Assembly (NCBI GenBank): GCA_018818165.1
Contig: JAHISP010000071.1
Location: 186,001-250,000 of the forward strand
DNA length: 64,000 nt
From: Bacteroidota bacterium
GTDB taxonomy: Bacteria > Bacteroidota > Ignavibacteria > Ignavibacteriales > Melioribacteraceae
Direction: 5' to 3'
The notes under the pieces are model-generated. The model was not told where the DNA came from and did not search any database. It saw only the letters and a list, made by a program, of their open reading frames with translations. Numbering within the stretch: position 1 is the first letter of the stretch; each line of letters opens with the position of its first letter. Made by a program: the position numbers and the translations under genes. Shown here one piece after another: positions 29,625 through 50,369 of the stretch.

Positions 29625-29639
29625 AATCGCTTATTATTT

Positions 29640-29722
29640 CAGCCGTTTCCCTACGCCGGCATTACCCGGATCAGGTTAAAGGGTCTACTCTCAGTCTCGG
29701 AATACGAAACACCCCTAACAAT
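29640..29722 (-). promoter_or_regulatory. TPP riboswitch (THI element)
   Basis: Read on the minus strand, the conserved THI-box parts appear in order: AGGGGTGT (29716-29709), CTGAGAG (29694-29688), ACCCTTTAACCTGATC (from 29684) and GGGTAATGCCGGCGTAGGGA ending near 29648. Binding of thiamine pyrophosphate to this aptamer is well established for the class. P1 can form between TTGTT just upstream of AGGGG and AACGG just after GGGA. It controls the receptor-thiN-transporter operon. Confidence 0.95.
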
Positions 29723-29759
29723 TTTTTCATAATGTATTTAAACTTAACAAATCATTTTT

Positions 29760-46012: not shown

Positions 46013-46468
46013 TTATAACTTAATTAATTTTAACATGCTTTTTTCATCCGATAAACATTCAGAAATGATATCAACCGATTCTCTTTGCCCTGGCCAAGCA
46101 AACAACTTTTTTGCTTTTTCTTTACCGCACCACAAATATTCAGAATGTTCAAGAGATAAAATAACTTTGTATTCCAAACCAACTTCAGCCAAAAAAACTG
46201 GCACCATATTAATGGAATCATCTTTTGCTGAATAAAACGAATTAACTTTGGGTACTATCCAAAACGATTTTGGTGTTAAAGTTGTTTCCTCAATAATCTC
46301 CCTAATGGCAGTTTGATATGCCTTTTCACCTTTTTCAATTGAACCAGTTACCATTTGCCAAACGTTTGGATAGATTTCAGTTTCAGCTCTTTTCATCACA
46401 AGAAATTCTATCTTGCCGTGAATTCTTCTAAAAACATGTGCTTCAATTAATGTGGATTTTATTATCAT
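46013..46468 (-). CDS. Nudix hydrolase
   Basis: 151 residues from the ATG at 46468; an in-frame TTG seven codons earlier is less likely. The Nudix box is GSIEKGEKAYQTAIREIIEETTL (positions about 46-68 in this model; consensus G-x5-E-x7-R-E-U-x-E-E-x-G-U, with Thr for the last Gly). It should hydrolyse a nucleoside diphosphate linked to another group, with Mg ions. Dihydroneopterin triphosphatase-like or NTP substrates are possible; none can be chosen. It follows the 46.5-46.9 kb non-coding stretch. Confidence 0.9.
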   Translation of the reverse strand: MIIKSTLIEAHVFRRIHGKIEFLVMKRAETEIYPNVWQMVTGSIEKGEKAYQTAIREIIEETTLTPKSFWIVPKVNSFYSAKDDSINMVPVFLAEVGLEYKVILSLEHSEYLWCGKEKAKKLFAWPGQRESVDIISECLSDEKSMLKLIKL

Positions 46469-46901
46469 AATTCTAGCTTTTGGATTCAAGATATCAGACT
46501 AGTGACATTCTAATCCATTATCTTTATTCGTTTTAATTATTTTCAAAAGAGTTTCAGTAAAATAAGCTTTTGAGCAATTTATATTTTAAGAAAATCAGAC
46601 TCTCTCCATGAGTATTCTCAGTACGTTATGCGGGTTTCAAAATGATTGTTTTTTATTTGTTGTAACAATAACAAACAAACATATCCAACTCACTTATAAT
46701 CCAATGCTGTCAACTTAAGGTAATATTTTTGTAGAGTGTCATTCCACAATGTTTCTATCGGGAATCTTTTCGATTAAAAAGATTCCGTGTAAGCCTGTCC
46801 CGTGCTGTATTTACACGGGAAACATCACGTAATGACAAGAGCTTAAGTTGACAACTCACTTATAATCTCACGTCTAGTGTCTCATATCTATCGTCTATTT
46901 A
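46469..46901. other. Non-coding spacer with a palindromic element
   Basis: No credible ORF. The first 210 bases are AT-rich without a clear motif. 46686-46867 holds the structured element given separately. The last 34 bases (CTAGTGTCTCATATCTATCG) show no feature that I can name. Confidence 0.6.
46686..46867. mobile_element. MITE/REP-like palindromic element with flanking direct repeats
   Basis: Terminal inverted repeats of 12 bases (TGTCAACTTAAG at 46708-46719, its complement at 46842-46853). Nested pairs follow inward: 46737-46743 with 46831-46837, and 46749-46754 with 46820-46825. Two inner hairpins sit in the centre: 46761-46770 with 46777-46786, and 46785-46792 with 46811-46818. A 16-base direct repeat, CAACTCACTTATAATC, flanks it at 46686-46701 and 46852-46867. 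The whole is a long foldable, non-coding unit as in MITEs or REP-like repeats. Confidence 0.6.
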
Positions 46902-49900
46902 TCAAAAATATGCTCTTGCTTCAGTGCGTAAATTATGGATTATTTTGCTATCGCCTTGTTTTCTTCCAAGATAATTTAGTGTAATCTGAAGATTATCTGC
47001 TATTCGATAATCAAAATTTACTCTCCAAAAATAGTTTTTTCCCACCACTTTTCCACGAAGCATTTCGTATGGAATTAAATTTGTTGTGCCATTATCCGAA
47101 ACTTCATTTCTTTCCGCTTCAATTCTTATGCGTCCTTTATTTGTAAATGAATAAGTAACACGTATTAATTGCGAATTAGTTTCAATCTTTGTTGGAGTTT
47201 TGGGCAGATTATCTGTACTATTTCCAACTCCAATTTTAAAACCAACTTCAATATTTTGAATAGGGCGGTATGAAAAATCGGAAGTGAGTTCATTATTTGC
47301 CAACATTCTAGCACGATTATTACTTGTAGCTGAAGCCACATCATCACTCTGATTTATAAAATCAGTTTGGTTACTTATTTCTTTAACCATTCTAAAACGA
47401 ATGCGCAACGATCTTTCTGAAAAATAACCCAGTTCGTTTCCATTATTAAATTGAGTTAACTTATTATTTTCTACAAACCTAAATCTGAAGGACAAATCTG
47501 GTTTATTCTTAAAAAGAAATAAATCTTGTTGAAACGAATTTGCACCGCGCAGTGTTGTGGAGTCGTTCATTAAAACATTTGACTTCAACAATAATACTGA
47601 TGCAATATTTTTTTCTTCTGAATATTCATCAATTCTAAAAACTGTTTCGGTTGATATTGGTGCTATAATTTTTGCCAAATATGAATTATTTGACTTGAAT
47701 ATTTTTGAAAAATCAATATTCCATCGTGTGCTAGTTTTTAGGTTCACTACTGGAAATAATTCTGAAGTTGGCGTGTTTAATAAAATATAATCACCTTCAT
47801 AAATATCTTGCACAAACTCATCTTCATCCGCAATTCCATTTGAATTTAAATCACCAAGATATTTATAGTTGCCTTCACCAAATTGAACTCTTACAAAAAC
47901 TCTTTCCAATCGCGCAGTGCTCTGGGTTGATGCTTCATAAAACAAATCTCCACCAATAAAATTTTGCCAAAAATTAAATTTGTTTTGTGAACGAATTAGA
48001 ACGGATTGATTATCAAGCAATCCAATTTCCTTAAATATGTCGGTATAATTCTTCTTACGTAAAGTTACATCAAGAGATAAATCAAGCTCTCTAATTCCAC
48101 GATAATTAAAACTTATGTTTTGCTGATTTGATATTGACTCCTTTTTCATAATTCCCTTTATTGGACTAGATTCATCACGAAGGGAATATTTAGCTGTAAT
48201 ATCAAATCCGCCAAGTTTTGCAATATTAATAAAAGCACCTATTTCAGAATATTTTCTGCTTTCTGGACTAAGTGAATCGCTTGCCGAACTCCATTCTTTT
48301 CCATCATCTGATAAGAAATCAATACCTGGAGTAAAATTTCCCAAATTATAACTAGCAGTTAAATTTTGCTTAAACCAATTGCTTCTGTTTGAAATGTCTT
48401 TGGTATTTACATAATCGTAATTGTAAAGTAGTTTATAGTTATTTGGATTCTGAAAGTTCATATCACCAAAAAATCTATCGGAACTAAACGAATCTCCTCT
48501 TTTTAGGTATCCGTAATTGATATTTGTTTGCAACTCCTCTATTGGCTGCAAAATCATTTTAAGTTCGCGCAAAGTTTCATCCATATTTTTAGAGTCGGTG
48601 ATGTTGTAATCTCTACTGTATTCAACTGAATTAAATCTATCTAAAGATGAAAACCTATCCTGCACAAATCGTTCACGATAGGACAAACCAACTTCTCCAA
48701 GTGAAAGCGAACCAATATCTAATTTGGATTTTCTAAATTCTGCTTTAATATTATGAGCACTTCCAAAATTTTTATTATTATCAATCTCTGAAAATGTATT
48801 TTGGTCAAATATGCTTCCAGCAAATTCCGCACTAATAATTAAATTTTTCCAAGGTTGCGCTTCCAAAACAAAATTTCCAATTTGCTTTTTTTGAGCCATC
48901 GGGATAAAAACAATTGGCAAATAATCTCCATTATTTTTGCCAACGTATTTAAAATTTCCAATGCTAATGCGAATATAATCTCCTTTTCCACTTCCAATAA
49001 AGTTAAAAGTAGCGTTATATTTTGCACTATCATTACCTGGTGAATATTCAAGATAAGATACATTTCCATCAGCATTTGTTGAATCAATTAAAATATAAGT
49101 CCCAATTCTTCTCCCAGTTGAGTCAGAACTGGCAAGTGTAATTCCACTTTTAATTGATTTGTTTCTATCGTTACCAGCTTGTTCAAGAATTTTTATGTCA
49201 TTTTCGGAGAGCGTAATATCAATAGGATTATTTTTATCGTCACTTTCGCTAAATGCGTTTACATAAAGCCGTAATTTATCATTAAAAAATGAAGTTGAGG
49301 CATTTCCCCCAAAAAGATTTCGTTCAAATTGTCTATCCGAATATTCAAAATCAACAACAATTCTACTTGCGGAAGTAATTAATTTTTTAGTTGTAAAAGT
49401 TATTTCTGCAATTGAATAATCAATTGTATAATCATTATTTTCTCCACGTTTCAACTCCTCGCCATCAATGTAAACTCTTTCTGTTCCAGCAATTACAATA
49501 ATTAACTTTTCATTATTAATTCCCGAAAGCCTATATGGACCTTGATTTCCATCGCTGCCCAAAAATTGATTTGTATTGAATTTTCCTTTGCTTCCAGCAA
49601 TTACACCCTTTCCCTTTGCTTCCCCAGAAAATATTTCCCCCTCCAAGCCCTGCATTTTACGATTTATTTTACCGAATTCACCAATAGAACTTTTCATTTC
49701 AAAATCACCAAATGTTGCAGCAGCATTTGGATGTTTAATTGTAATGTAAACTTGGTCAAGTTCTTCTAAACGTTCAGTTGTCCCTTCTGGTTGAATTGGA
49801 ATATTTTGATCAGTAAGTGCCGCAACAATTTCTAAATCACTACTAAGCTTTCCCGAAAACTGTAATCGCATTCCACTATTTAATTTCATGTCTTGATTTG

Positions 49901-50369
49901 TACCAATTGAAAATCCTCTGCTTATGGAACCGCTTCGCTTTATTCCTTCGCCAAACATTGCCTCTGATGACAAAGAAGCGAGTTCATTTCTAATTACTCT
50001 AATTGTATCCTGCATTTTATCATCGTATCTAACTTCAAGTTTTCTGTGTTGATATTCATTTTTAATGGGTACATCTATACTAGAGTATGTTATATAAAGC
50101 GTGTCAAAGATGGAATAAGAAAGGCTATCGGAAAGTGATATTATTTTGGTTCTGTAATTTATTGAATAATCCATTTTGTTTAATGGTAATCCTTGCAAAA
50201 CTATTTGTTCACTATTTGGAATTATATTTGATTCTTGGAGTTTATAAATATTGTTTAAATTTATTGGATGTTTCTCTTTTATGGATTTAATATTGGAATT
50301 TTCTTGAGCAATTAAATTGCTTAAGAAAATGATGTATATCAACAATATGAATGGTTTTGTTTTCAGCAA
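46902..50369 (-). CDS. Large exported outer-membrane-type protein (1155 aa)
   Basis: Signal peptide (LKTKPFILLIYIIFLSNLIAQ) followed by a very long beta-rich protein. A region near residues 150-330 has GSISRGFSIGTNQDMKLNSG, then EELDQVYITIKHPNAAATFGDFE, then RVYIDGEELKRGENNDYTIDY and ITFTTKKLI, a module recurring in large surface proteins of this phylum. The remaining 800 residues show alternating strands with aromatic ends (WSSASD, YSEIGAFINIA) and a C-terminal YF, suggesting an outer-membrane beta-barrel. Function unknown. Start is TTG with only a weak ribosome site. Confidence 0.75.
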   Translation of the reverse strand: MLKTKPFILLIYIIFLSNLIAQENSNIKSIKEKHPINLNNIYKLQESNIIPNSEQIVLQGLPLNKMDYSINYRTKIISLSDSLSYSIFDTLYITYSSIDVPIKNEYQHRKLEVRYDDKMQDTIRVIRNELASLSSEAMFGEGIKRSGSISRGFSIGTNQDMKLNSGMRLQFSGKLSSDLEIVAALTDQNIPIQPEGTTERLEELDQVYITIKHPNAAATFGDFEMKSSIGEFGKINRKMQGLEGEIFSGEAKGKGVIAGSKGKFNTNQFLGSDGNQGPYRLSGINNEKLIIVIAGTERVYIDGEELKRGENNDYTIDYSIAEITFTTKKLITSASRIVVDFEYSDRQFERNLFGGNASTSFFNDKLRLYVNAFSESDDKNNPIDITLSENDIKILEQAGNDRNKSIKSGITLASSDSTGRRIGTYILIDSTNADGNVSYLEYSPGNDSAKYNATFNFIGSGKGDYIRISIGNFKYVGKNNGDYLPIVFIPMAQKKQIGNFVLEAQPWKNLIISAEFAGSIFDQNTFSEIDNNKNFGSAHNIKAEFRKSKLDIGSLSLGEVGLSYRERFVQDRFSSLDRFNSVEYSRDYNITDSKNMDETLRELKMILQPIEELQTNINYGYLKRGDSFSSDRFFGDMNFQNPNNYKLLYNYDYVNTKDISNRSNWFKQNLTASYNLGNFTPGIDFLSDDGKEWSSASDSLSPESRKYSEIGAFINIAKLGGFDITAKYSLRDESSPIKGIMKKESISNQQNISFNYRGIRELDLSLDVTLRKKNYTDIFKEIGLLDNQSVLIRSQNKFNFWQNFIGGDLFYEASTQSTARLERVFVRVQFGEGNYKYLGDLNSNGIADEDEFVQDIYEGDYILLNTPTSELFPVVNLKTSTRWNIDFSKIFKSNNSYLAKIIAPISTETVFRIDEYSEEKNIASVLLLKSNVLMNDSTTLRGANSFQQDLFLFKNKPDLSFRFRFVENNKLTQFNNGNELGYFSERSLRIRFRMVKEISNQTDFINQSDDVASATSNNRARMLANNELTSDFSYRPIQNIEVGFKIGVGNSTDNLPKTPTKIETNSQLIRVTYSFTNKGRIRIEAERNEVSDNGTTNLIPYEMLRGKVVGKNYFWRVNFDYRIADNLQITLNYLGRKQGDSKIIHNLRTEARAYF

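Follow-up and report, generated by a model that had tools for sequence, protein, structure and literature searches.

A short palindromic element in the genome of an uncultured Ignavibacteriales bacterium is, with little doubt in our view, an IS4-type MITE with a CGTC-REP-like dimer inside, and belongs to a set of a few dozen short mobile pieces without genes in this genome. It was found in a window of 64,000 nucleotides, the whole stretch of DNA that was analysed. The sequence-level support consists of the ends shared by its copies, the target duplications, the empty sites, the recurrence of these ends on complete elements of the IS4 family, and REP dimers that stand free. Both parts are of known kinds and their combination is new: a CGTC-type REP dimer joined with IS4-family ends was not found described in the literature searched (open-licence papers). 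A preliminary description of this locus had offered a non-autonomous transposon, a REP-like element and an element lost by recombination as separate readings, and the first two are both right, as the pair of ends is common to many copies with target duplications, while the REP-like dimer between them can also be found free.

Architecture and genomic setting of the element

The features of the window copy are collected in Table 1. The 12-bp terminal inverted repeats reported previously are exact (46708-46719 and 46842-46853), but the true left repeat is 18 bp long, CAATGCTGTCAACTTAAG, starting at 46702, and it is perfect in the window copy. Intact copies elsewhere terminate in CTTAAGTTGACAGCATTG. 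The right end of the window copy is without the last of these bases, its match to the family end breaking off past GTTGACA, and it is because of this lost tip that only 12 bp had been counted. The flanking 16-bp direct repeats, CAACTCACTTATAATC, are likewise exact, at 46686-46701 and 46852-46867, but exceed in length the duplications of other copies, which are 9-10 bp. They are made up of the 10-bp ACTTATAATC and CAACTC, the six bases preceding the left duplication, and only the 10-bp part (46692-46701 and 46858-46867) is compatible with a target duplication. On the simplest reading, the right tip would have been overwritten by copying of the left flank at the shared CAAC. No open reading frame of 50 aa or more lies inside the window copy.

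Table 1. Features of the window copy and its immediate flanks.
Feature	Position	Strand	Basis
Whole element: IS4-type MITE (very probable) with REP dimer, right terminus decayed	46702..46857		Homologous copies genome-wide
Left terminal inverted repeat CAATGCTGTCAACTTAAG, intact	46702..46719	+	Family ends; also found as an end of IS4-family insertion sequences
Right terminal inverted repeat; CTTAAGTTGACA intact at 46842-46853, with flank-like sequence in place of the last bases	46842..46857	-	Differs from the 18-bp end at 5 positions
Probable 10-bp target duplication ACTTATAATC, left copy	46692..46701	+	Position and length match other copies
Probable 10-bp target duplication ACTTATAATC, right copy	46858..46867	+	Sequence; repeat match
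CAACTC, identical to 46686-46691; lengthens the repeat to 16 bp	46852..46857	+	Presumed copy of the left flank
Left linker from end to REP dimer, conserved among copies	46720..46736	+	Alignment A2
REP unit 1, tagged TGTC; stem ATTCCACA/TCGGGAAT, with two mismatches in the window copy	46737..46766	+	Sequence; alignment A2
Central hairpin CTTTT..AAAAG linking both REP units	46766..46781		Fold
REP unit 2, inverted relative to unit 1 and split by a nested unit; tag GACA (= TGTC)	46781..46837	-	Sequence; alignment A2
Extra TGTC-tagged hairpin CCTGTCCCGTGCTGTATTTACACGGGAA within the loop of REP unit 2	46794..46821	+	Alignment A2

The near-complete fold noted earlier stands, being far better than that of dinucleotide shuffles (z of -4.48 as DNA and -4.24 as RNA), none of which equalled it (0 of 200). 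A fold this strong, together with a few compensatory changes in the family hairpins, is also what a conserved structured RNA gene or a cis-regulatory RNA of the locus might display. That explanation is very improbable: the few compensatory changes are attributable to variation in the REP sequences, and a simple scan finds no terminator-like site. The preliminary description had itself stated that its reading would be refuted by a lack of further copies together with conservation of the sequence at this locus as an RNA gene; what is found is many copies dispersed across the genome, no Rfam match at the element, and absence of the element from the same locus in relatives. Since covariation over the whole element is weak, mostly not above shifted controls, and a reading as three hairpins is only slightly better, we make no case for selection at the RNA level. 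The sole Rfam match is a TPP riboswitch at window positions 29631-29726 on the minus strand, which is over the gathering score.

The element lies between a gene for a Nudix-type hydrolase (46013-46489; weak family scores) and a gene (46902-50369) for a 1,155-aa protein that has no NCBIfam match. These two genes adjoin each other in many relatives, and in three congeners the intergenic space between them is without the element, an empty site of the kind that the preliminary description had proposed to look for. In two congeners without the MITE (L113 in G004 and L114 in G003), degenerate GTCATTTCGAA.. and ATCATTCCC.. hairpin-like stretches occupy the same intergenic space. It looks as if hairpin repeats visit this space repeatedly.

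A dispersed family and its IS4-family partner

A genome-wide BLAST search shows that the element is far from single, with 82 matching pieces on many contigs of its own genome (4.88 Mb). The 15-bp end occurs there 37 times in the forward and 37 times in the reverse direction, against 1 and 3 occurrences of a reversed control. By pairing of ends, at least 24 complete elements with both ends were recognized in this assembly of 105 contigs, which is fragmented at these repeats and has some family ends at contig edges. These 24 elements fall into size classes of 131-158 bp, which includes the window copy, and of 183-390 bp, with other interiors. In the own genome and in sister genera, other palindromic interiors are seen between the same IS4-type ends: GCCCAACTTCT..AGAAGTTGGGC, GTGGCTAAAGCC hairpins and GATTACACAGATGACGC-like palindromes. 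Loci at which the interiors differ include L034 (contig C9), L079, L074, L128, L131, L139 and L141.

Target duplications are 9-10 bp long and exact in several copies (e.g. CTTAAAAAT, ATCTATATG, CATTCATTAG and GCTAAATAT). Over 22 own-genome elements the two flanks match on average at 6.64 of 10 bases, as compared with 4.84 when right flanks are permuted, the highest value in 2000 permutations being 6.09. Flanks match at nine or more of 10 bases in 8 of these 22, and a clear duplication is absent in 14, which may reflect age or decay of the ends. The outer flanks of 144 family ends have a C/T bias from about -16 to -7, with AAG adjoining the end. Among these same 144 flanks, a preference for insertion at CCCTCTCT..AAG-like sites is apparent, several of them inside CCCCTCTC..GAGAGGGG-type palindromes; a target preference of similar kind is known for some IS4-subgroup elements (PMC2266710).

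This pattern of copies also bears on a third explanation, by which the element would be either an attC recombination site of the integron type or the scar of a recombination; an imperfect palindrome of ~150 bp with GTTGACA near one end speaks for it. The attC box is GTTRRRY. GTTGACA departs from that box, and the copies do not form a cassette array, being scattered singly between unrelated genes, with target duplications; we give an attC site or scar practically no chance.

In line with the preliminary description, which saw no transposase in the window, neither IS4 nor Y1 transposases were matched there. A transposase enclosed by the same ends, which it had put forward as a thing to search for, is present in relative G052. 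There, contig 18 begins with the same end and encodes an intact 431-aa DDE transposase, assigned to NF033592 IS4 in NCBIfam (E 1.5e-44, above cut-off). The element is complete at 1,478 bp, and its inverted right end matches at 16 of 18 positions (2 mismatches). A second complete IS4-family element, of 1,441 bp in G011, has the ends CAATGCTGTCAGGTTAAG, with the same two changes at both ends. In congener G002, the C-terminus of a transposase is followed by the exact family end, forming the right half of an IS4-family element. The transposase at locus L083, which scores above the NF033592 cut-off, has IDGS, VADRG and YFMRWGLEEGFKQLK, with the Y-R-E-K spacing of the YREK motif. At another locus (L080, G000:C23:3940 onward), a partnerless end is followed by broken frames that resemble, by eye, an IS1380-type transposase.

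Because the MITE shares its 18-bp ends with an IS4-family insertion sequence, an IS4-type transposase could act on it. Transposition in trans is most likely: a transposase of this type, supplied from elsewhere in the cell, would bind the 18-bp ends and move the element to a pyrimidine-rich CCCTCTCT..AAG-like site, leaving a target duplication of 9-10 bp. The TGTC/CGTC-tagged REP-like pair, of a type without a known transposase of its own, would ride along. In the own genome, a decayed IS4-family copy opens with the exact family end and only broken copies exist, no intact IS4 transposase having been found in the 105-contig assembly; any present movement would therefore need a copy that is missing from the assembly or is on another replicon. 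The window copy itself is probably immobile now, because its right end is damaged and the assembly holds only broken transposase copies.

The REP-like cargo

Between the linkers, the cargo reads TGTCATTCC..GGAATC-TT..AA-GATTCC..GGAATGACA, that is, two opposed hairpin units with their tags outward. It resembles the CGTC REPs of Di Nocera and colleagues, which include dRS3 of Neisseria and occur in Chlorobi and Bacteroidetes among others (PMC3733652). The two have in common a TGTC or CGTC tag, 8-bp stems starting with AT (here ATTCC..GGAAT), and an arrangement as head-to-head heterodimers (PMC3733652), which in the present genome are also free-standing and in many copies. They differ in the loop, 4-5 nt in published CGTC REPs and ~9 nt here, and in the tail, CCA-like in the former and CTT-like here (PMC3733652). 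Because of these differences in loop length and tail, the cargo is best classed, on its sequence, as CGTC-REP-like and outside the four published families.

The own genome has dimers at 48 places, of which 14 lie between two IS4-type ends, 9 adjoin a single end and 25 have none, although free dimers may be undercounted by a model (R1) that was built from composite copies (alignment A4), and decayed ends may let composite dimers pass as free. In the free dimers that were inspected, unique flanks start directly at the tag, and no IS4-type ends are present. The preliminary description had held the inner hairpin to be independent of the ends. In agreement with this, the REP dimer is an independent repeat that is carried by the MITE, because dimers also occur free and are abundant in congeners G003 and G004, where the ends are few. 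The nested hairpin CCTGTCCCGTGCTGTATTTACACGGGAA is shared by the window copy and one other among 16 aligned copies, and the rest are without it. Such nesting of REP within REP recurs in alignment A2, where several copies have extra hairpins in the loops of REP units, mostly beginning with (C)CTGTCCC.

A REP-like dimer that is free at 25 of 48 places, in a genome with nine Y1 transposase domains, might instead be a REP/BIME-like palindrome that owes its movement to a Y1 tyrosine transposase of the RAYT type, the outer ends then belonging to a REP array. We consider this improbable, since the free dimers are without the ends, which also enclose quite different interiors and bound IS4-family elements. 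The target duplications are IS4-like and largely contradict movement by Y1, and a strict search with a regular pattern found no REP units near the nine Y1 genes.

A scan of a species-genome collection with the composite pattern returned only 8 stretches. Full composites came from a CG18 Ignavibacteriales MAG and a Chlorobiota MAG, and no clear complete composite was present in the stretches from Clostridium (two), Proteobacteria and Melioribacter. The same composite element is borne by contig PCUD01000166.1 of Ignavibacteriales bacterium CG18_..._31_20, which is congener G002.

Comparison with known systems

Elements of the IS4 subgroup have ends of the form -AATR--------WTW, a size of 1400-1650 bp and duplications of 10-13 bp, and in the sister subgroup IS4Sa the duplications are 8-10 bp (PMC2266710). 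The family end CAATGCTGTCAACTTAAG agrees with this consensus at all stated positions, the complete relative of 1,478 bp encodes a DDE transposase with Y-R-E-K spacing, and the duplications are ~10 bp (PMC2266710). Unlike members of the subgroup, the window element is without a transposase, and the observed duplications of 9-10 bp lie at the low edge of the 10-13 bp range (PMC2266710). Judged by sequence features, it is a MITE with IS4-subgroup ends and would work like one.

The published CGTC REP families are reported to have no dedicated transposase and have not been described inside insertion-sequence ends, and the CGTC REP dimers of H. neapolitanus sit inside a 41-bp palindrome (PMC3733652). 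Whether other transposases move CGTC REPs was left open by those authors (PMC3733652). CGTC-tagged REPs are widespread. IS4-type ends with target duplications provide one concrete and testable route of spread, which would cover roughly 30 to 50% of the dimers found in this genome, since both ends accompany 14 of 48 and at least one end accompanies 23 of 48. The element is thus a plausible vehicle for spreading REP hairpins. A broader proposal, which we put forward tentatively and think rather unlikely, is that IS4-type ends repeatedly acquire palindromic repeats, CGTC-REP dimers in this genome and hairpin cargos of other kinds in sister genera, which would make IS4-type transposases a general vehicle for REPs without a transposase of their own. 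If true, it would answer how CGTC REPs move.

The closest precedent is QMITE2 of Coxiella burnetii, likewise a small MITE with a REP inside, which is 150-190 bp long and has terminal inverted repeats and direct repeats of 7-11 nt (PMC5896051). Smaller QMITE2 copies are REPs without the ends (PMC5896051). The REP-in-MITE layout described here thus parallels the GTAG-REP MITE of Coxiella. The two differ in their REP, GTAG in QMITE2 and CGTC-type in the window element, and in the origin of transposition, undetermined for QMITE2, whereas the ends of the window element match those of an IS4-family insertion sequence (PMC5896051).
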